From Paludibacteraceae bacterium (GTDB lineage: Bacteria > Bacteroidota > Bacteroidia > Bacteroidales > Paludibacteraceae), in NCBI GenBank assembly GCA_905234685.1, contig CAJOIR010000019.1:1-37357 (forward strand): 37,357 bases of DNA, in the 5' to 3' direction. The notes under the pieces were generated by a model that was not told the DNA's origin, did not search any database, and worked only from the letters and a program-made list of their open reading frames with translations. Position 1 is the first letter of the stretch. Every line of letters begins with the position of its first letter. Below are positions 27,403 to 37,357 of this stretch, one piece after another. Position numbers and translations under genes: made by a program.

Positions 27403-27435
27403 TTGCACATATATAAAAAAAAAGCAGTAATTTTG
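27403..27435 (+). promoter_or_regulatory. Bacteroidota-type promoter of the cobalamin operon
   Basis: The -7 element TAATTTTG is at 27428-27435. The best -33 candidate, TTG at 27403-27405, is 22 bases upstream, slightly longer than the 20 seen for the other promoters here. Transcription would start about 20 bases before the riboswitch. Confidence 0.6.
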
Positions 27436-27459
27436 CGCGTTGAAAAGCAAACAATAATA

Positions 27460-27645
27460 CCAACTGCGGTTCTTTTGTGTTGAAGGGTTACTCCGGCAAG
27501 CACAAAAGCCAAGAGGGAATCAGGTGAAAATCCTGTACAGACCCGCTGCTGTGAGTCCTAAAGTTGTTGCTGCATAATGCCATTGTTTACAGGAGTAAAT
27601 GAGAAGGCGCAGTAACGAGGACGAGTCAGAATACCTGCCGCACGT
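27460..27645 (+). promoter_or_regulatory. Cobalamin riboswitch
   Basis: The core blocks of the cobalamin riboswitch appear in order: GAGGGAATCAGGTGAAAATC (27513-27532), the ACAGACCCGCTGCTGTGAG block (27537-27555) and the B12 box GAGTCAGAATACCTGCC (27623-27639). GCGG at 27466-27469 can pair with CCGC at 27638-27641 as the closing helix. These aptamers bind adenosyl- or other cobalamins and lower expression of the downstream genes when the vitamin is plentiful. Its placement directly ahead of a BtuB-type receptor fits exactly. Confidence 0.93.
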
Positions 27646-27647
27646 TG

Positions 27648-27750
27648 AGCGTTCACAAGACTCCCGAGGACTGGAGGCGGACGAGAAGTCAGCACGTGCT
27701 CTGTGCGACTCACTTCCACAACTATACTTTGAGTGTGTCTTGTTGACGCT
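27648..27750 (+). promoter_or_regulatory. Structured leader RNA after the B12 box (expression platform candidate)
   Basis: AGCGTTCACAAGAC (27648-27661) can pair with GTCTTGTTGACGCT (27737-27750) at 12 of 14 positions, closing a domain. Inside are a small CTCC/GGAG hairpin (27661-27676, which would share base 27661 with the outer helix) and a longer one at 27685-27716 built on GAAGTC/GACT-ACTTC and GCAC/GTGC. In cobalamin riboswitches a hairpin 3' of the B12 box makes a loop-loop contact with the core (L5-L13); one of these may be it. Pairings were found by eye. Confidence 0.5.
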
Positions 27751-27764
27751 GATAAAAGAAAGAA

Positions 27765-30038
27765 ATGCGCAATAAGACTACATACACTTACCGTTTTCTG
27801 CCAATTAACGAGTGTTATGCGGGAGCCTTCTGCCGTGAGGCAGAGGGCTTCCGATTGTCTTTATTATCCGATAAATTGAAGATTCGAAGATTCATATATA
27901 TATTGATACTGCTATTGGTTACGACGGGTGTTGCTGCTCAGGAGAGCGTGGAGGACAGTATCGCACGACTTCTAACGATAGACGAAGTGACAGTGAGTGC
28001 AAAAAGGCGAGAAGAACCTGTGATACCTGTACAAAAATTAGAGGGGGCACGTTTGGAGGGTCTCAGTACTCAGTCGGTGGCAGATGCCGTCAGGTACTTT
28101 TCTGGAGTACAGATAAAGGACTATGGTGGCGTAGGCGGCTTGAAGACGGTGGATGTGCGCAGTATGGGTACAAACCATTTAGGCGTGTTCTACGACGGAA
28201 TAGAGATAAGCAACGCCCAGAACGGCACAGTTGATTTAGGCAAGTTTTCTATGGACAACATAGAGGAGATTGCTCTATACAACGGACAGAAGTCAGAGAT
28301 ATTCCAACCCGCCAAGGACTTCGGCAGCGCAGGCACCTTATATATAAAGACACGCCGCCCACGTTTCAGAGACGGTAAACGCTACAACGTGAACGTGACG
28401 ATGAAAGCGGGCACTTTCGGTCTCGCCAACCCGTCGATACTTTATGAACAGAAATTAACCGACAACATACACTTCTCCGCCAATGCCGAATACACTTATG
28501 CACACGGGCGCTACCATTTCCGCTACAGGAGAGTGTTACCAGACCACAGCGTGGCGTGGGACACGACAGCGGTGAGAGAGAACGGCGACGTCAGTTCATG
28601 GCGCGCGGAAGCAGGATTCTTCGGCTATCTGCCAGAGGGCAAATGGCACGTCAAGGGCTATTTTTATGACAGCGAAAAGGGCATTCCTGGTGCAATAGTG
28701 AACAACGTATGGAAGAATTCGCAGCGACAATGGGACAGAAACGCGTTCGTACAGGGCAACTTCACGAAGACGATAGCAAGAGGTTATGACCTTCAAGTGA
28801 ATGCCAAATACTCGAACGACAAAATGCGATACCTGAACCCGGATACCACGCTGATGTATATAGACAACACGTTTACGCAGCAGGAGGTGTATCTGAGCAT
28901 GGCACACAGGCTGGCTATCGTTGGAGTAAAGGGTTTCGTCCGCAACAACGATGTCAACTGGGACTTGAGCGTTAGTGCCGACTGGCAATGGAATTATCTG
29001 GCAGGCAACCTGAGCAACTTCGTTTTTCCTGAGCGCAACACTGTGCTTGCCGCTGCCGCTACGCAGCTCGACTGGAAATACATAAAAGCACAGGCATCGG
29101 TGCTTGGCACCTTCGTCTTCGACAAGATACACCAACCTACCATCAGTACCCCCACCGCCTCGAAACAAGACCCACAGTTTACGCCTGCGGTGTTCCTGAC
29201 CATACACCCATATCTGGAAGACCTCTACCTGAGAGCATTCTACAAGCGCATATTCCGAATGCCAACGTTCAACGACCTATATTACACTGATATGGGGAGC
29301 ATAAGTCTAAAGCCTGAATACACAAGGCAATACGACGGTGGAGCGGAGTACACAAAGACATGGGCGACAGGTGTATGCCGCGCTATAGACCTGAAGGCAG
29401 ACGGTTACTACAACGAAGTGACAAACAAGATAGTAGCCATACCGAAAGGTAACGGTCAATACCGCTGGCAGATGATGAATCTCGGTTATGTGGAGATTCG
29501 CGGTTGTGATGTGAACGCCTCTACAACGCTGTGTCTATATGGCGACAACAAGGCTTCTTCGCACGAAGTGCTACTGACTGTTGCTGCGGCGTACACATAT
29601 CAGAAAGCACAAGACCTGACTGATCCGGAAGAACTTACATACGGTGGTCAGATAGCATACATACCATGGCACAGCGGCAGCGCAACAGCGAACCTGCAAT
29701 GGAGAATTGGAAATAGAAGTCTGGAGCAAGGAACAAGGACACAGGATGGCGGAATATTGGCTGTGAATTACTCGTTTATATATGTCGGAGAGAGGTATCA
29801 CAACTCGGCCAATATACCCGCAAACCATGAACAACCATGGTACACACACGACGTGAGCATCTCATATGAAATGAATCTCGGTCGAAAGACAAAAGAAGAA
29901 AGAGAAAAGAACAATTACATGCCGAGACTGCACTTCGCATTGGAGATAAACAACATGCTGAACCAGCAATATGACGTGATACTGAACTACCCTATGCCCG
30001 GAATCAACGGAAAAGGGATAGTGAAGGTTATTTTATAA
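27765..30038 (+). CDS. btuB: BtuB-type TonB-dependent cobalamin receptor
   Basis: 757 residues from ATG at 27765. The signal peptide sits unusually far in (LKIRRFIYILILLLVTTGVAA, about residues 38-58), which suggests that translation may really start at the in-frame TTG at 27876. The mature protein begins QESVEDS and has a TonB-box-like IDEVTV (about 72-77), a plug domain (about 80-200, with DAVRYFSGVQIKDYGG and VRSMGTNHLGVFYDGI) and a 22-strand-type barrel to the end. The last residue is Leu (KGIVKVIL), not the usual aromatic. It would import corrinoids across the outer membrane using TonB energy. The assignment rests on the cobalamin riboswitch just upstream and the BtuG-like gene 43 bases downstream. 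Confidence 0.92.
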   Translation: MRNKTTYTYRFLPINECYAGAFCREAEGFRLSLLSDKLKIRRFIYILILLLVTTGVAAQESVEDSIARLLTIDEVTVSAKRREEPVIPVQKLEGARLEGLSTQSVADAVRYFSGVQIKDYGGVGGLKTVDVRSMGTNHLGVFYDGIEISNAQNGTVDLGKFSMDNIEEIALYNGQKSEIFQPAKDFGSAGTLYIKTRRPRFRDGKRYNVNVTMKAGTFGLANPSILYEQKLTDNIHFSANAEYTYAHGRYHFRYRRVLPDHSVAWDTTAVRENGDVSSWRAEAGFFGYLPEGKWHVKGYFYDSEKGIPGAIVNNVWKNSQRQWDRNAFVQGNFTKTIARGYDLQVNAKYSNDKMRYLNPDTTLMYIDNTFTQQEVYLSMAHRLAIVGVKGFVRNNDVNWDLSVSADWQWNYLAGNLSNFVFPERNTVLAAAATQLDWKYIKAQASVLGTFVFDKIHQPTISTPTASKQDPQFTPAVFLTIHPYLEDLYLRAFYKRIFRMPTFNDLYYTDMGSISLKPEYTRQYDGGAEYTKTWATGVCRAIDLKADGYYNEVTNKIVAIPKGNGQYRWQMMNLGYVEIRGCDVNASTTLCLYGDNKASSHEVLLTVAAAYTYQKAQDLTDPEELTYGGQIAYIPWHSGSATANLQWRIGNRSLEQGTRTQDGGILAVNYSFIYVGERYHNSANIPANHEQPWYTHDVSISYEMNLGRKTKEEREKNNYMPRLHFALEINNMLNQQYDVILNYPMPGINGKGIVKVIL
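27821..27852 (+). other. 14-base-pair hairpin inside the annotated 5' end of btuB
   Basis: GGGAGCCTTCTGCC (27821-27834) pairs along its whole length with GGCAGAGGGCTTCC (27839-27852), with two G-T wobbles and a GTGA tetraloop. The tail (GATTGTCTTTATTAT) is only partly T-rich. It lies between the upstream ATG at 27765 and the TTG at 27876 that directly precedes the signal peptide, so it could belong to the riboswitch expression platform and not to coding sequence. Confidence 0.6.
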
Positions 30039-30071
30039 CCTCTCCCTAACCCACCCCTCAGGGGAGGGAAC
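30037..30071. repeat. REP-like C/G-rich element between btuB and btuG
   Basis: The intergenic sequence contains CCTCTCCCTAACCCACCCCT followed by CAGGGGAGGG, with a short CCCC/GGGG hairpin. Similar elements with CTCCCTAACCC next to GGGGAGGG are a common kind of extragenic repeat in bacteria. Only one copy is seen in this window. It overlaps the last two bases of btuB. Confidence 0.45.
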
Positions 30072-30081
30072 AAAGATAGAA

Positions 30082-31236
30082 ATGAAGATGAATAGATATA
30101 TAATCAAGTTAATAAGTCTGCCGTTGTGGGCAGGGCTGACGATGTTATGCGGTTGCCGCGAGGAAGTAGCCGTGTTCACACCCGAAGAAGAACAACACGG
30201 CGAGATACAGAAGACCGAGATAGCCGGTTTCTATCTGCTGAACGAAGGTAATATGGGTTCGAACAAGTCCACGCTGGACTACTATGACTACTCCACCGCA
30301 ACTTACAGCCGCAACATATACGCCGAGGCGAATCCGTCAGTGCCGAAAGAACTCGGCGACGTAGGTAACGACATACAGATATACGGAGGGAGACTATATG
30401 CCGTGATAAACTGTTCAAACAAAGTGGAAGTAATGGATGCGGTGACGTGCAAGCGTATCGGACAGATTGACATACCGAACTGCCGCTATATCCGTTTCGA
30501 CGGGCAATACGGGTATGTGACCTCGTATGCCGGTCCGGTGGAGATAAACCCCGACTACAAGCAGAAAGGCTACGTGGCACGCTTCGACACCGCTACACTT
30601 GAGGTGACAGACCGCTGCATCGTCGGTTATCAACCTGATGAATTAGAGATTGCCAACGGCAAGATATACGTAGCGAACTCAGGAGGCTACATGGTGCCCA
30701 ACTACGAGAACACTGTGTCGGTTATAGACCTTGCAACCTTCACAGAGACGAAACGCATACCAGTGGCAGTGAACCTGCACAGAGTGAGGAAAGACAGTCA
30801 TGGGCAACTATGGGTCAGTTCGCGAGGTGACTACTACGACACACCTTCGAGACTCTATTGTATTGACCTGAAGACAGAAAGAGTGGTTGACAGCGTGATG
30901 ACGGCGGTATCGAACCTCGACATTATTGGCGACTCACTGTATCTATACTCAACAGAGTGGAGTTACTTAGAAATGGATGACGCTGTGGGTTATGGGATAG
31001 TGAACGTAAATACTCATGAGATAGTAAACAGGTGTTTCATAACTGACGGCACTGAAGAGAAGATAAAGAAGCCATACGGCATAAAGGTGAATCCACTGAC
31101 GAAAGAAATATATGTTACTGACGCCAAGAACTATGTCACTCCAGGAACACTATACTGTTTCTCGCCGGAGGGAGTTCAGAAGTGGTCAGCAAGGACAGGC
31201 GACATACCTGCGCATATAGTATGGCTCTGGAAATGA
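30082..31236 (+). CDS. btuG: BtuG-like cobalamin-binding surface lipoprotein (beta-propeller)
   Basis: 384 residues. The lipoprotein signal ends in LCGC, with lipidation expected at Cys25, followed by Arg-Glu-Glu; an acidic patch right after the cysteine is the Bacteroidota signal for display on the outer face. The rest is a run of WD40/YncE-like blades, for example IYGGRLYAVINCSNKVEVMD, GKIYVANSGG and TKEIYVTDAKNY, with the IAGFYLLNEGNMGSNKSTLD opening seen in BtuG/DUF5074-type proteins. In Bacteroides thetaiotaomicron BtuG sits on top of BtuB and captures B12 with extreme affinity. Position directly after btuB in a riboswitch-controlled operon supports the same role here. Binding residues cannot be confirmed from sequence alone. 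Confidence 0.88.
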   Translation: MKMNRYIIKLISLPLWAGLTMLCGCREEVAVFTPEEEQHGEIQKTEIAGFYLLNEGNMGSNKSTLDYYDYSTATYSRNIYAEANPSVPKELGDVGNDIQIYGGRLYAVINCSNKVEVMDAVTCKRIGQIDIPNCRYIRFDGQYGYVTSYAGPVEINPDYKQKGYVARFDTATLEVTDRCIVGYQPDELEIANGKIYVANSGGYMVPNYENTVSVIDLATFTETKRIPVAVNLHRVRKDSHGQLWVSSRGDYYDTPSRLYCIDLKTERVVDSVMTAVSNLDIIGDSLYLYSTEWSYLEMDDAVGYGIVNVNTHEIVNRCFITDGTEEKIKKPYGIKVNPLTKEIYVTDAKNYVTPGTLYCFSPEGVQKWSARTGDIPAHIVWLWK

Positions 31237-31280
31237 GGAGAAAAGTTTAAGGTTTAAAGGTTAAAGTTCAAAACTTGATT

Positions 31281-32354
31281 ATGAAAAGAAATATATTCTG
31301 TATTATGTGCTCTGCAGTCTGCTGCATGACAGTACTGGCGGAGACGCCGTACATATCGCATGTATGGGAATACAGACCCGCTCCAGGACAGTTTGTAAAC
31401 GAGTTGCCTGAGTATGAAGAAGGTGACGATGCCAACATGATGAGGTTAAAAGCGGAAGAGGCAATAGCAGACAACAACCTCGGTATGATAAGTCTCGGCG
31501 GTTGGGGAGGCTATGTGGTGTTTGGCTTCGACCACGAAGTGAAAAATGTACAGGATGAGTATGACTTTGTGGTACTTGGTAACGCGTTCTACTCTGATGC
31601 CGGCTATGAGCAAGAAGGAAGAAAAGGAGGGTCATGCGAACCAGGTATAGTAATGGTAAGCCGAGATGACAACGGCAACGGCAAGCCGGATGACGAATGG
31701 TATGAACTGGCAGGTTCGGAACACAATAATCCCAAGACCGTTCACGGCTACGAAGTGACTTACTACCGCCCTGCTGCAGGACACCAGCCTACTCCATCGG
31801 TCAACAACAAGGCGCTGACAGACACGACATATATCCTATGGCAAGACAACCAGTCAAGCGAAGGTTACATATACAAACTGAAATACCATACACAGTCGTA
31901 TTTCCCCGAGTGGTTAGACAAAGACACGATGGTGTTCACAGGCACGAAGCTACCAGACAACTACACTGACGAGTCAGGTGAGGGCACATACTACGTACTC
32001 TACGCTTATCCATGGGGCTATGCAGACAATCATCCCAATACCAGCGAGCAAGCCAAAATGAAGATTGACTGGGCAGTAACGGCGGAAGGCGAACCCGCGA
32101 ACCTGAGCGGCATACACTTCGTAAAAGTATATACAGGCGTGAACCAACAATGCGGCTGGATAGGCGAGACTTCTACAGAAATAATGGGTGCACAAGATTT
32201 GCACGCGAGCACGGTATTGGAGAATGTAAGAGTTGATTACAAAAAAGAGACATATACCATAACGGGTATGAAAATAACTGAAGATTCCCGTTCAAAGCAT
32301 GGAATATATATAATGCGTGAAGGAGGCAATGCTAAAAAGATAATAAGGTTATGA
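31281..32354 (+). CDS. Secreted protein of unknown function in the B12 operon, T9SS tail
   Basis: 357 residues from ATG at 31281 (a TTG two codons earlier is less likely). Signal peptide MKRNIFCIMCSAVCCMTVLA, no lipobox. Notable blocks are GGWGGYVVFGFDHEV (about 73), NAFYSDAGYEQEGRKGGSCE (about 101) and RDDNGNGKPDDEWYELAG (about 128), an Asp/Asn-rich loop like the calcium loops of dockerin or EF-hand type. YAYPWGYADNHPN is seen further on. The last 40 or so residues (ITGMKITED ... GIYIMREGGNAKKIIRL) look like a short type A T9SS sorting domain. I recall related proteins of unknown role in Bacteroidota B12 loci but can give no established function. A B12-binding or receptor-complex role is inferred from position. 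Its stop overlaps the next start (ATGA). Confidence 0.82.
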   Translation: MKRNIFCIMCSAVCCMTVLAETPYISHVWEYRPAPGQFVNELPEYEEGDDANMMRLKAEEAIADNNLGMISLGGWGGYVVFGFDHEVKNVQDEYDFVVLGNAFYSDAGYEQEGRKGGSCEPGIVMVSRDDNGNGKPDDEWYELAGSEHNNPKTVHGYEVTYYRPAAGHQPTPSVNNKALTDTTYILWQDNQSSEGYIYKLKYHTQSYFPEWLDKDTMVFTGTKLPDNYTDESGEGTYYVLYAYPWGYADNHPNTSEQAKMKIDWAVTAEGEPANLSGIHFVKVYTGVNQQCGWIGETSTEIMGAQDLHASTVLENVRVDYKKETYTITGMKITEDSRSKHGIYIMREGGNAKKIIRL

Positions 32355-33823
32355 AAAGAATATACATATCGCTGATTGCGGTGTCGGCAGCAGTGTGTAT
32401 GCAAGCGGCAGACACACTGACACTGAACCTGCCCGCCATAGTTGACAGTTACACTCAGACAGAAGACGGATACTGGGAGGACACATACAAAGACGGTGTG
32501 ATTGAGGACGACATCTTCCGTTTCTCACACACAGGCACCTCCGATGGTGGCGGCGGCATGGCTTACTGGGAGGGGTTCACACTGTGCACGTCAGGCGACA
32601 CGACCAACTATGGTGCTATAGGCAGTTCTGACGGTTGGATAGCAAAGCAGTGGGGCTGCATGGCAGGCGGTGGCTGTGACAGCATGGGCAATGCAGTGAA
32701 AGACGCTCCATATTTAGTGGCGTACTGGGGGTTTTCCATGGAGTTGGCAGATGACACATACCACAGCGTGCGAGTGGATTTCACAGACGATGAGCCACAT
32801 AAGTGCATAGGCACATGGATATGCAACCACCCTTGGCCTTATTACGGCAACATCAACGGTGACGGCTTCGCCAGTGCTTTCACGAAAGAAGGAGACTATT
32901 TCGCTCTTGTGGCACACGGTCTGAATGAACAAGACGAGCCTACAGGAGTGAGCGTACGTCTAATGCTGGCAACATATAGCAACGGGGCACTTCATCAAAG
33001 CGCAGACTGGCAATATATGGACTTGCAGACATTGGGAACTGTAAGCGGCATCTATTTCACAATGGAGACAAGCGATGCAGACGCACTATACGGAGCCAAT
33101 ACAGCAGTGTACTTCTGCATGGACAGACTCTCGGTATTGTCAGCAGACAGAGAGAGTCAGGAGCTGGCACGTCCCACAGGTCTAAAAGTGACTTCCTCAG
33201 GCGAAGACAGCATTGTGCTGACATGGAACAAAGTGCAGGGGGCGGAGGAGTATATGCTGTGGCTTGACAGTACAGAATACGGCAAGGCTACAGACACATG
33301 TTATATATTCAGAGACCTGCTGCCATACAAGGAATATACATTGGCTGTTGTGGCAGTGAACAAGACCGAGACATCCGACATGGCTTCTATAACAGGCATG
33401 ACAACCGACGAAACGGCACCTACAATACCACAGAGTCTGCAGGCAGAAGCGACTCAACACAGCATTACTCTAACATGGCTACCATCGGAGGATAATGTGG
33501 GTATTAAGAGATACACTGTATATACTGATGGTGAACCCTACAAACGCACCACCACATGCTCCTGCGACATAGTAGGACTGGATGCGGGCAGAGAGTACAT
33601 GCTTGAAGTGGAGGCAGAAGACAACGCAGGCAACAAGTCGGAGAAGGCATCTGTCACTATAACAACACCGGAAGACACTGCACTTGAAGACATTGCAGCA
33701 GAAACAGAGGTGCAAAGTGTATATACAACAGACGGTAAATATGTTGGTAATGTCATTCCTGCTAAAAGCGGAATATACATAGTTAGGAAAAACAGCAAAC
33801 AAACAATCATATTTATTAACTAA
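32351..33823 (+). CDS. DUF4465 protein with two FN3 domains and T9SS tail, B12 operon
   Basis: 490 residues. Signal peptide MKRIYISLIAVSAAVCMQAA, no lipobox. A DUF4465-type domain fills about 21-265 (GYWEDTYKDGVIEDD, GGGMAYWEGFTLCTSGDTTN, GINGDG-type loop, VYFCMDRLSVLS). Fibronectin-III domains follow at about 273-355 and 356-440, and a short type A T9SS sorting domain (SGIYIVRKNSKQTIIFIN). From memory, the B12-binding accessory protein BtuH of Bacteroides belongs to a DUF4465-like group; I could not check this. If so, this is the corresponding surface B12 binder, here sent out by T9SS and not as a lipoprotein. The start overlaps the upstream stop by 4 bases (ATGA), so translation is coupled. 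Confidence 0.85.
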   Translation: MKRIYISLIAVSAAVCMQAADTLTLNLPAIVDSYTQTEDGYWEDTYKDGVIEDDIFRFSHTGTSDGGGGMAYWEGFTLCTSGDTTNYGAIGSSDGWIAKQWGCMAGGGCDSMGNAVKDAPYLVAYWGFSMELADDTYHSVRVDFTDDEPHKCIGTWICNHPWPYYGNINGDGFASAFTKEGDYFALVAHGLNEQDEPTGVSVRLMLATYSNGALHQSADWQYMDLQTLGTVSGIYFTMETSDADALYGANTAVYFCMDRLSVLSADRESQELARPTGLKVTSSGEDSIVLTWNKVQGAEEYMLWLDSTEYGKATDTCYIFRDLLPYKEYTLAVVAVNKTETSDMASITGMTTDETAPTIPQSLQAEATQHSITLTWLPSEDNVGIKRYTVYTDGEPYKRTTTCSCDIVGLDAGREYMLEVEAEDNAGNKSEKASVTITTPEDTALEDIAAETEVQSVYTTDGKYVGNVIPAKSGIYIVRKNSKQTIIFIN

Positions 33824-33845
33824 TCAAATAACAACACTTACATTC

Positions 33846-36800
33846 ATGAGAAAATTATTCTTATCGGTCATCTTAGTGATGACAAGTGTGATGTGGTTGA
33901 CAGCAGCCAACGTCAAAGTGACGATGAATGCAGTCAGTACCACAATGAAACTGGCAGAGAAGACCACAGGCGATGCTGTCGATGTGGGTGAACCTGCCAG
34001 CAGAGTGTACAATTTCAGTGTTGCAATGGGCACCTACGTGCTTACCGCCTACGACACTGACGGCACTACTGTAAATGGTACTCTTGAGATCAAAGTGTCA
34101 GACGATGACCTTGACCTGAAGGTGTTTACCATTACCACTTATGCCACCAACAGCGGGTGGGCATACGGTACAGACTACGCCATTAGTGCTTCTGCCATAT
34201 CACGAGAAGGTGGCGAGTTGGTAATTACTCTCGGTGACAGCAAGACAGCAGGCAGAAAGACGTTCCTTGTGCTGAACGGGAACACCTACTTCTGCGACCT
34301 TATGCCCTCTGCCGCACGCAAGGCAGAAGGGTATACCACGCTGTACAAGACAGGCACCGTTACAGCCAACACAAACGCCACAGGAGCAATACCAAAGGCT
34401 ACCATAGCTACAGTGACTGCTCCGGCTGATGCAACAGTGTTTGTAGGCAGAAAGACAGCGCATTTCGTGTCATTCATCGAAATACCCTGTGACAGTACCA
34501 AAGGCAATGTGCATTACTACACCGTAGCTCAAGGCTCTGATTATAATTACAGAGTGTCACGAGCAGGCGGCCTGACACAAGGCGGCGTATTCTCAGCAAG
34601 TGCCACTGTAGCACCGGAGATAACAGTAAGTGACGCCGACTTCGCAGCAAAGAGTCCGAAATGGATAGACCACGATGTTAAGTCTAACGGAGGCTACAAC
34701 GTGGCTGACTTATTCCTGAACATCAATGCACAGGAGCACCTGAAACTGACAATGGGTCAAAGTTACGACCTACTGCCATTGCGTAACTGGGAGGTAGTGA
34801 ACAGCATCACTGCAAACTACTTCATTGAGCCTGATTACCACTATACAGTGACAGACCTTAACGGTGTAGAGAGTAGTAGCGTGGTGACAGTTGATGCCGA
34901 TGGTACTCTGCATGCCTTAGGCAACGGTGCAGCAATCGTGACTGTTACCTACGATGCCATCTGCCTAAAGGGTATGGCAGGCGGAGACTATTGGAGCGCT
35001 ATCTGGCCTGAGAATACAGGTGTGTTTGTAGTCACTGTAGGTGATGCACCGACAGGCATAAACCTCGGCATGACTATCAACGAGACCAACACCACCACTT
35101 ACAAACTGGCCGGCACAGCATATGATGCAGACTTCGATGTCCTATACTTTGCCGAAGGCAATGACGCCGGATACAACTACACCTTCAAACCTACCGGCGT
35201 GACAAGCGTGAGAGTTGCTTATCCTACATTAGGTGAGAATGCTGCCACTTATCACGGTTTTGGTTCAGAAGGTGTGACATACAACAGCGAGACCGGCGAA
35301 TACACCGTAAAAGTTAAATTCGGAAAGCAGATTGTGCAATTGACCAACGCCAGCGGTGTGAGCGAATATCAGGTGCTGGTAGGCAAACCAGTACATATCG
35401 AAGCCACTGCGGCAGGTCGCGCACAGACCGGCAACTTCCAGCCGGGTGACGTTGTTACAGTACAGCTCTCTGGTCTGTATCACCCCGCCAACAAGCTGGC
35501 AGGTGTGCACAACTTCAATGCCACCACAGTCTATAAACACGAGGGAACGGAGTTGAAGAGTGCAAGCAACCAATACACGTTCTGCAGTGCTCCTACAGCA
35601 CAAGCAGTAACAGTAACACTGCCCGCCGACATGGATGTGGCAGCCGCAAGCAATGAGTACAAACTTGAAGAAGGGTTCATTAGAGCAGGTGGTTTCGGTG
35701 ACCCAATAGGCAATCACCGCAACACATCAAAGAAATTCGGACGCGGACCCAACTTCACCGCTATCAGCCAAACTGCCATTTTCGGCGCACTGCCTCCTAT
35801 CACACTGCCTCTACGTGAGCGCGTACAGAAGCAACTGAAGATAAATGTCACTCCTTCTGATGCCTACGTAATGCTGACTGACTATGCAGGCAACCAAATG
35901 ACAACAACAGACGGCGTATATAACATCACCACAGCCGACTACAACTACACAATTACCAAGACGGGCTATCATACCGTGAAAGGCGTTGCACATATCACCG
36001 ATGCCAATGAAGCACTGACCACCATCAACATAACCATGGAGGCTATTGATGCTACTGACACCAGTTGGGATGGCGTAACAACAGACTATGTGCCCGAAAC
36101 TGAGGGCGACTGGTACCTCATCAAGTCGGGTTATCACATGGCATGGTTTGCAAGCAAAGTTAACAACGGCACACGTGACATCTATGGCAAACTCATGAAC
36201 GACATCTCTCTCGGAGGATACAACTGGACTCCTGCTGGAGGTTCGACATCTACCAAGGCATTCACAGGTAAGTTTGACGGTCAGAACCATACAATTGACA
36301 GCTTGTATATCAACAGCACCGCAACATATCAAGGTCTGTTCGGCTATGTGCAGGGAGGAGAAATCAGCAAACTGACTGTAAAAGGCGAAGTGACCACCAC
36401 TGGCAGTTACGCAGCAGGTATCGCAGCATATCTGAATGCCTCCAAGATGACCGACTGCTATAACTTCGCAGCAGTGAATGCCGCATCCAATATGGGCGGT
36501 GTGGCAGGTTATACCAACGGCACTACAACCATTGACCGCTGCGCCAACTTTGCTGACATAACAGCAACGGGCAACTACGCAGGCGGTATCACTGCCAACA
36601 CCATGAACAAGAACGTAGTCATCCAAAACTGCTATAACACCGGTAACATCACAGGTGCCAACTACGTGGCAGGTATCACTGCCAACATGCAGCAGGCAGC
36701 TACGGTGAAGAGCGTATATAACGTGGGTACAATCAAAGGCACCGGTGCCAATGTTGGTGCTATACGCGGCCACAAGACTAATGGTACATTCGACAAGATC

Positions 36801-37357
36801 TTTGCTGTAAAGGCATACGCAGTTGACGAAGAGGCTACTGTGGAGTTTGCAGACGGTACAGTAGCACATCTGCTGGGTGCTCCGTTCGGACAAGAGATAG
36901 GACAAGACCCCTACCCTGTGCTGAACGACAAACCGTTGTACATGCTCTCAGTAATCGGACAAAATGATACGACAACATCTTTCGTTACCGAGACTACATT
37001 GCCTGACACCGTGTGGATTAACAATATCTACGGCGGCTACTTTAATGCTGAAGGCAAGAAGGTTACCGAGGTGAAGAGCGATACAATTGTCACTCTCATG
37101 ATTGACGTGAAACCTCTCACCGGTGCTGCCACATTTGAGGAGCGCACCTTCAAGCCTGAGACCGCATGGTATGGTGACCCTGACTTTGCAGATGATGAGA
37201 ACTACTGGAATTCCGGTGACTATATCTTCTCAACCTATTGGGACAACTGGGGTGCTTCGGGCATCTTCTACTATGATGTCACCATGGCAAACCTCACTGG
37301 CAAAGAGTTCGGTTGGAGCAATCCGTACTACGACCAGTACAGCGCCGCAGGAGGTGC
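33846..37357 (+). CDS. Giant secreted protein with Ig-like, GLUG-like and DUF4465 domains, partial at the right edge
   Basis: ATG at 33846 opens a frame with no stop through the window end (1,170 codons seen). Signal peptide MRKLFLSVILVMTSVMWLTA. Then beta-rich regions, including a Big_2-like stretch (TLHALGNGAAIVTVTYD, about 355), a PEGA-like segment (LKINVTPSDAYVMLTDYAG, about 661) and GLUG-like repeats at about 808-971 (FDGQNHTIDSLYI, YQGLFGYVQGG, MGGVAGYTNG, YAGGITAN). From about residue 1095 a segment (TFEERTFKPETAWYG, YIFSTYWDNWG, FYYDVTMANLTGKEFGW) resembles the start of a second DUF4465 domain. It follows the FN3/DUF4465 gene by 22 bases on the same strand and is probably co-transcribed in the riboswitch operon. 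Function and full length are unknown; a large surface protein that presents a cobalamin-binding-type domain is plausible. Confidence 0.85.
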   Translation, partial: MRKLFLSVILVMTSVMWLTAANVKVTMNAVSTTMKLAEKTTGDAVDVGEPASRVYNFSVAMGTYVLTAYDTDGTTVNGTLEIKVSDDDLDLKVFTITTYATNSGWAYGTDYAISASAISREGGELVITLGDSKTAGRKTFLVLNGNTYFCDLMPSAARKAEGYTTLYKTGTVTANTNATGAIPKATIATVTAPADATVFVGRKTAHFVSFIEIPCDSTKGNVHYYTVAQGSDYNYRVSRAGGLTQGGVFSASATVAPEITVSDADFAAKSPKWIDHDVKSNGGYNVADLFLNINAQEHLKLTMGQSYDLLPLRNWEVVNSITANYFIEPDYHYTVTDLNGVESSSVVTVDADGTLHALGNGAAIVTVTYDAICLKGMAGGDYWSAIWPENTGVFVVTVGDAPTGINLGMTINETNTTTYKLAGTAYDADFDVLYFAEGNDAGYNYTFKPTGVTSVRVAYPTLGENAATYHGFGSEGVTYNSETGEYTVKVKFGKQIVQLTNASGVSEYQVLVGKPVHIEATAAGRAQTGNFQPGDVVTVQLSGLYHPANKLAGVHNFNATTVYKHEGTELKSASNQYTFCSAPTAQAVTVTLPADMDVAAASNEYKLEEGFIRAGGFGDPIGNHRNTSKKFGRGPNFTAISQTAIFGALPPITLPLRERVQKQLKINVTPSDAYVMLTDYAGNQMTTTDGVYNITTADYNYTITKTGYHTVKGVAHITDANEALTTINITMEAIDATDTSWDGVTTDYVPETEGDWYLIKSGYHMAWFASKVNNGTRDIYGKLMNDISLGGYNWTPAGGSTSTKAFTGKFDGQNHTIDSLYINSTATYQGLFGYVQGGEISKLTVKGEVTTTGSYAAGIAAYLNASKMTDCYNFAAVNAASNMGGVAGYTNGTTTIDRCANFADITATGNYAGGITANTMNKNVVIQNCYNTGNITGANYVAGITANMQQAATVKSVYNVGTIKGTGANVGAIRGHKTNGTFDKIFAVKAYAVDEEATVEFADGTVAHLLGAPFGQEIGQDPYPVLNDKPLYMLSVIGQNDTTTSFVTETTLPDTVWINNIYGGYFNAEGKKVTEVKSDTIVTLMIDVKPLTGAATFEERTFKPETAWYGDPDFADDENYWNSGDYIFSTYWDNWGASGIFYYDVTMANLTGKEFGWSNPYYDQYSAAGG

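Follow-up and report, generated by a model that had tools for sequence, protein, structure and literature searches.

A riboswitch-controlled vitamin B12 uptake operon

The analysed window (37,357 nucleotides) is contig C19 of a Paludibacteraceae genome, a 63-contig draft of 2.1 Mb that is 92% complete, and our subject is the vitamin B12 uptake operon at its end, in which two accessory proteins, BtuH and a BtuJ-type protein, carry C-terminal tails resembling sorting signals of the type IX secretion system (T9SS). The operon is headed by a cobalamin riboswitch aptamer on the plus strand (RF00174; 27450..27656; 99.9 bits, E 5e-24, gathering threshold 31.5), which was the sole Rfam match in the window at the gathering threshold and the only cobalamin riboswitch found throughout the draft genome. 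On its 3' side follow five plus-strand genes encoding BtuB, BtuG, BtuH, a DUF4465-FN3 protein (BtuJ) and a giant protein. The order given in the initial annotation, i.e., riboswitch, BtuB, BtuG, DUF4465-FN3 protein and giant, was retained, and the third protein, there called unknown, turned out to be BtuH. This is an operon of the known BtuB-BtuG-BtuH-BtuJ kind, whose accessory binders have a different predicted export route.

The first gene (27765..30038, start uncertain) encodes a TonB-dependent B12 transporter of the BtuB1 type with a Plug domain, and its nearest solved protein is 8blw_A (BtuB1; E 2.4e-108). A 15-pair GC-rich hairpin on the same strand (27820..27853), seen in a pattern scan only and possibly an expression platform, falls within the predicted 5' end of BtuB (window 27765-27860) and may belong to the riboswitch. 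Since the hairpin lies inside the predicted gene, translation of BtuB probably begins further downstream than 27765. The second gene (30082..31236) encodes a BtuG-type beta-propeller surface lipoprotein (8blw_B, E 2e-46; DUF5074), with a lipobox recognised in the sequence (..MLCGC-REEVAV) and acidic residues after the cysteine. As the initial annotation had stated, the combination of lipobox and acidic export signal is confined to BtuG, and the proteins at 31281 and 32351 start with plain signal peptides in which our home-made lipobox rule found no box. The uptake core of BtuB and lipoprotein BtuG should not need T9SS.

BtuH (31281..32354, plus strand; open reading frame (ORF) from 31275) is a stand-alone B12-binding domain behind its signal peptide. 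It matches the C-terminal part of 8blw_B, which is the BtuG1/BtuH chain in the structure of BtuB1 (E 9.6e-79), as well as 7biz, a structure of BtuH (E 4.4e-46); we take the latter to be BtuH2, in agreement with the contact residues. On the strength of these structure-chain matches, a new or BtuL-like protein was rejected as an identity for the 31275 product. Six B12 contacts of BtuH2 have been named (PMC8941943), and in an alignment with an inferred numbering offset five of them are identical in the window protein and Trp511 is replaced by Tyr; we infer that the window BtuH binds B12. As the lipoprotein signal is a feature of the Bacteroides thetaiotaomicron proteins and not of the domain, it is the domain assignment alone that is claimed for BtuH. 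A hidden lipobox in its Cys-rich signal peptide (..CIMCSAVCCMTVLA) was considered and rejected: no canonical box precedes a cysteine, and the orthologue at the closest related locus, L229, has a plain start (..GAAAQ-SPY).

The fourth gene (32351..33823, plus strand) encodes the BtuJ-type protein, which combines a DUF4465 domain (PF14717, 100.8 bits against a cut-off of 25) with two FN3 domains (fn3, 63 bits in two stretches). The DUF4465 domain, a B12-binding jelly roll, was placed by the genome search at 32561..33127. Relatives in the PDB are 4jqr, 9hmu and 9i2l, and alignment with them shows that the B12-binding HI-loop tyrosine is kept (NTAVYF). B12 binding has been demonstrated for eight DUF4465 members (PMC13398666) and is predicted for the window BtuJ.

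Short C-terminal tails and the secretion machinery

Both accessory proteins end in a short tail on the plus strand, KETYTITGMKI..HGIYIMR..KKIIRL in BtuH (32244..32351) and VYTTDGKYVG..SGIYIVRKN..IIFIN in BtuJ (33713..33820). The initial annotation had called them type A-like T9SS tails, had proposed a search of both C-termini against TIGR04183 and PF18962, and had named the lack of a match beforehand as a refutation. Neither profile matched either tail even at E ≤ 10. With the curated profiles missing both tails, the claim could not rest on them, and the tails are not filed as the long-form type A sorting domain.

The likeness to type A tails nevertheless held in a comparison of two profiles of our own. 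A short-tail profile of nine tails (two from the window, two from L229 and five chosen by eye at other named loci) was set against a profile of 17 long type A C-terminal sorting domains (CTDs), ten from the same genome and seven from BtuH/BtuJ orthologues. The two matched with 96.2% probability (E 2.5e-9) across motifs B, D and E, compared with 0.1% for the short-tail profile against the BtuH domain as a control; since seven BtuH/BtuJ orthologues entered the CTD profile, the two profiles are not fully independent. At the same place, TIGR04183 scored above its curated cut-off in six of seven BtuH orthologues and in all three BtuJ orthologues tested. In the alignment of the short tails, both window tails contain the Gly and Tyr of motif B, the GxYI of motif D and a basic motif E, although in BtuJ, which ends ..KQTIIFIN, the basic residue lies farther from the C-terminus than in BtuH. 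In the structure model of BtuH, strands 320-324, 339-345 and 348-354 (model numbering) form a three-stranded sheet after a disordered linker. A loose fit to the short-CTD cleavage motif PT/GI was seen in BtuJ (TALEDI), using a pattern of our own with approximate motif boundaries. Chance resemblance was rejected as an explanation of the tails on the basis of the profile-profile match and their recurrence at L229.

Short CTDs of this kind have been described in Prevotella intermedia, where sorting domains about 40-55 residues long, which share these motifs and are predicted to fold into a three-stranded sheet, were shown to be cut and glycosylated (PMC11969387). For HBP35 of Porphyromonas gingivalis, the last 22 residues of the domain, in which motifs D and E lie, are enough to have green fluorescent protein secreted (PMC10202324); the original abstract calls them required (PMC3120885).

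The genome encodes the corresponding machinery. Among the por genes that the initial annotation wanted checked (porK/L/M/N/U/V), PorL, PorM, PorN, PorU and PorV scored above their curated cut-offs, as did Sov/SprA, and PorK was present as a cut fragment below its cut-off. TIGR04183 has 20 matches across the genome, 18 of them above cut-off and none in the B12 operon. The short-tail profile matched three other proteins of this genome, namely an S8 protease, an M6 protease and a CotH protein, all of commonly secreted kinds. From these comparisons of sequences and models, T9SS export of BtuH and BtuJ-FN3 is strongly indicated. Elsewhere in the window, on the minus strand (2043-24741), four further proteins have TIGR04183 matches, three above cut-off; the fourth is a protein of 3619 residues with MAM, purple acid phosphatase N-terminal and FN3 domains.

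Related loci

Among 80 named loci, the top relative is L229 of a Paludibacteraceae genome from goat abomasum, where the BtuH domain is 76% identical to that of the window and where the whole operon and both tails are kept. BtuH and BtuJ of the two loci are 69% and 65% identical, respectively, with motifs B, D and E retained in both proteins, and the BtuH tail is 53% identical as against 14% for its linker. The riboswitch was found in 10 of 11 related loci scanned. From the 80 loci, 33 whose BtuH carries a C-terminal extension were selected (19 by score, 14 by eye); BtuB is found in 25 and BtuG in 28 of these, several contigs ending nearby. At one of the 33 (L251), BtuH ends not in a T9SS-like tail but in a dockerin-like DLDGDGRLTVSDITLLINIYL stretch. 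At another named locus (L058, genome G259), BtuH and DUF4465 are fused in one protein of 679 residues with a sorting-domain-like end.

Lipid anchors and sorting tails across the order

The survey of the order Bacteroidales comprised 295 genomes, 66 with BtuH and 120 with DUF4465, and T9SS status was assigned by a PorU match (272 genomes with, 23 without). Extra pieces of the same gene and fragments were set aside, e.g., two in G171 and one in G161:C315; the 213 places found plus three of the window genome gave 216, from which, with one left out and one merged, 214 ORFs resulted. Four ORFs open at the C-end are omitted from the tail counts, and the scan with the curated profiles covered the 207 ORFs that lie outside the window genome and have a complete C-end. 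TIGR04183 was found in 106 of 125 tails from proteins without a lipobox and in 4 of 82 from proteins with one (Fisher test, 4e-33; as the genomes are related and the anchor type is clustered, this and the p-values below are overstated). The lipobox rule, a home-made pattern, errs both ways and leaves 26 exceptions. Outside the window genome, 16 ORFs have neither box nor CTD, nine of which look like lipoproteins missed by the rule, and the boxes of four ORFs with both look false. The BtuH of G182 is among the four with lipobox and TIGR04183 tail, and its box is taken as false. The initial annotation had suggested that B12 capture dependent on T9SS would be a new arrangement; given these 106 tails, T9SS-type tails on such accessory proteins are widespread in the order and not peculiar to this operon, and a dependence of B12 capture on T9SS is hypothetical.

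A second count used a CTD model built from 17 tails of the window genome, with a cut-off of 12 bits and a best shuffled tail of 7.1. The window tails reach 7.1 and 10.2 bits in this model, at or above the best shuffled tail and below the cut-off, and were therefore counted as having no CTD. Among ORFs with a complete C-end, CTDs were found in 108 of 178 from PorU-positive genomes and in 1 of 22 from PorU-negative genomes (p 2e-7; the latter count draws on 20 of the 23 negative genomes). Eight genomes with a weak PorU score form a third class with 10 ORFs counted, one of them with a CTD. Counted by genome, among those with a complete C-end ORF, a BtuH or BtuJ with a CTD is present in 88 of 118 PorU-positive and 1 of 10 PorU-negative genomes. 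The one CTD in a PorU-negative genome belongs to a giant of G093 (locus L124), 2555 residues long, with DUF4465 and a T9SS-like tail, which shares its region with a lipoprotein BtuH and a lipoprotein BtuJ. Both kinds of anchor are carried by 14 genomes. Matches to the short-tail profile were obtained in 64 of the 272 PorU-positive genomes (the window genome included) and in none of the 23 PorU-negative ones (p 0.006), the lack of PorU-negative genomes among the short-tail and giant-tail matches having been checked by eye. The lack of short-tail matches in PorU-negative genomes and the near-exclusion of lipobox and sorting domain support T9SS export of BtuH and BtuJ, which on these sequence patterns appears well supported.

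In a quick tree of 80 BtuH domains, 72 were labelled by anchor (31 CTD, 41 lipoprotein) and eight left unlabelled; the window BtuH was labelled CTD by the author. At least six anchor changes are needed among the labelled rows, four of which are forced by well-supported branches, and the rows at the shortest path from the window BtuH are of the CTD type. In the order as a whole, a lipid anchor and a predicted T9SS-type tail take turns in BtuH and BtuJ, the BtuH switches being counted irrespective of direction.

A giant DUF4465 protein with a tail of its own

The last gene of the operon (33846..37357, plus strand, open) encodes a giant with a signal-peptide-like start that is cut by the contig end and is 63% identical over 1180 columns to the giant at L229, which is complete with 1318 residues and one DUF4465. 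In the window, a partial DUF4465 begins at about 37095 and breaks off where the contig ends. Another contig of this genome, C33, starts with an open frame holding two more DUF4465 domains, the first of which is 86% identical to that of the window giant over 106 residues; the two are mutually 71% identical over 300 residues. C33 is likely the continuation of the giant. The protein had been introduced as a GLUG/DUF4465 giant; its DUF4465 part was borne out, and GLUG was not found by Pfam at E ≤ 0.1, the GLUG-like repeats being visible by eye only.

The tail of the giant is probably of another type, one specific to the genus. Its consensus TGVEDI-x8-KVMRDGQIYILRDGKTYNVLGAEVK lies at the extreme C-terminus of both the C33 continuation and the L229 giant, and tails of this type are located at L315-L344 in the window genome, at L028 (1736-1843) and at L229 (10807-10914). 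The giant's tail matched no NCBIfam or Pfam sorting profile. A profile made for it has 38 matches in the 2.1 Mb genome; all 30 matches examined are at protein ends, 0-5 residues from the terminus, and all seven of the proteins with a visible N-terminus begin signal-peptide-like. A motif resembling the short-CTD cleavage site precedes 21 of the 30 tails (1.1 expected in shuffles) and was not found ahead of the tail of the L229 giant. The tail type is abundant in this genus only, with at least 26 matches each in G000 and G245; elsewhere, one or two matches occur in nine other genomes, all PorU-positive. Compared with the long sorting domains, the giant-tail profile gave 14%, aligned at motif B alone, and the reading as a type A CTD was rejected on this ground. 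A tentative idea, which we hold with less than even confidence, is that the tail might represent a T9SS sorting signal of a new class, i.e., a half or motif-permuted short CTD of the genus; two kinds of T9SS signal could then display a multivalent B12 sponge, with at least three DUF4465 domains in one giant, beside lipoprotein BtuG.

Discussion

We put the probability at roughly 80% that BtuH and BtuJ-FN3 act as T9SS-exported surface catchers of B12 in a riboswitch-controlled operon. Following the precedent of Bacteroides, a scarcity of cobamide would lead the riboswitch to permit reading of the operon. BtuB would take its place in the outer membrane, with BtuG, exported as a lipoprotein, sitting on it as a lid at the cell surface, while BtuH and BtuJ-FN3 would be exported by Sec to the periplasm and recognised there via their short C-terminal sorting domains. 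The type IX system (Sov/PorV) would push both proteins outside, and PorU would probably cut them and fix them to surface polysaccharide, where they could catch B12 and hand it over to BtuG-BtuB.

Several observations weigh against this reading, and some of them would suit a periplasmic role in which the short tails are non-working relics and BtuH and BtuJ serve as B12 buffers. According to PMC13398666, lipoproteins make up more than 70% of the DUF4465 family, whereas the remainder, i.e., members without a lipoprotein signal, bear periplasmic targeting signals. Both tails are missed by the curated profiles, and between the window and L229 the identity of the BtuJ tail is 0.44, compared with 0.57 for the FN3 part and 0.50 for the linker; the proportion of nonsynonymous differences (pN) is 0.278, 0.279 and 0.422 for tail, FN3 part and linker, respectively. 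The BtuJ tail shows no higher conservation than the FN3 part, which counts against strong selection on it. In BtuH, no cleavage-site motif was found with our own pattern and its approximate boundaries, and the model confidence of the tail is modest (block means 62-69). As regards the profile comparison, the five outside tails were picked by eye, and seven BtuH/BtuJ orthologues contributed to the CTD profile. The same-genus genome G245 has PorU and yet encodes a lipoprotein BtuG-BtuH fusion and a lipoprotein BtuJ. Finally, the anchor labels are clustered on the BtuH tree (6 changes against a shuffled mean of 23.4), so that the anchor, with its at least six changes, was mostly inherited yet switched repeatedly. 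Relic tails are nevertheless improbable in our view: at the divergence given above, the two species retain motifs B, D and E in BtuH as well as in BtuJ, conservation in BtuH is higher in the tail than in the linker, and the other short-tail proteins of the genome are of commonly secreted kinds. In P. intermedia, moreover, the cutting of short CTDs is experimental fact (PMC11969387). As a separate observation, the G245 proteins are encoded at locus L202 (10473-15577), with the lipoprotein fusion and BtuJ beside BtuB, which resembles B. thetaiotaomicron.

Export by T9SS could also end in release to the medium or to vesicles, with BtuH and BtuJ acting like shared B12 carriers. The BtuJ of B. thetaiotaomicron acts on extracellular vesicles (PMC12751083), and T9SS cargo may be either released or anchored (PMC10202324); however, the genome has PorU and PorV, the parts that fix type A cargo at the surface, and we regard release as unlikely, albeit a variant to be taken seriously. 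The suspicion that the operon might be peculiar to this one assembly, nourished by the state of the draft (63 contigs, 92% complete) and the cutting of the operon by a contig end, is refuted by the recurrence of the operon including its tails at L229 and by the CTD-bearing BtuH or BtuJ in 88 of 118 PorU-positive genomes, and we give it next to no credence.

Compared with cobamide operon 1 of B. thetaiotaomicron (btuB1-btuGH-btuJ1, BT_1489-1491; PMC12751083), the window operon shares the order BtuB-BtuG-BtuH-BtuJ and the riboswitch control, and the nearest solved relatives of its BtuB, BtuG and BtuH are all in 8blw. In B. thetaiotaomicron, however, BtuG and BtuH form a single fusion protein, BtuGH, which is a lipoprotein like BtuJ1, whereas the window has a separate BtuH, T9SS-type tails on BtuH and BtuJ, and an extra DUF4465 giant. 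The window BtuH shares the B12-binding domain and five of the six named contacts with BtuH1 and BtuH2 (PMC8941943), from which it differs in having a C-terminal sorting tail and no lipoprotein signal. Similarly, the window BtuJ has the PF14717 domain with the HI-loop tyrosine of the BtuJ/DUF4465 family (PMC12751083; PMC13398666), but FN3 and a sorting tail replace the lipid anchor. The short CTDs of P. intermedia, called the sole species reported with both long and short CTDs, likewise fit motifs B, D and E into about 45 residues and are predicted to form a three-stranded sheet (PMC11969387); the window tails sit on predicted B12-binding proteins in another bacterial family. P. gingivalis HBP35 is likewise a cofactor-binding uptake protein exported by T9SS, although it is a different protein and binds haem, not B12 (PMC3120885). 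No mention of T9SS was seen in the available parts of the DUF4465 paper PMC13398666, and among the matches listed in a search of the open-access literature, at the level of titles and abstract beginnings, none links T9SS to B12-binding proteins.

Judged from the sequences, the T9SS-type tail seems to be an alternative to the lipid-anchored route of Bacteroides that is common among relatives of this bacterium, and it suggests that curated profiles undercount T9SS cargo. Short sorting domains would thereby be extended beyond Prevotella intermedia. Recent work on BtuJ and DUF4465 assigns members that lack a lipoprotein signal to the periplasm. If our reading holds for many Bacteroidales, such DUF4465 members would be surface or released B12 traps, models of B12 competition in guts and rumens would change, and T9SS mutants would be worth examining for their B12 uptake.

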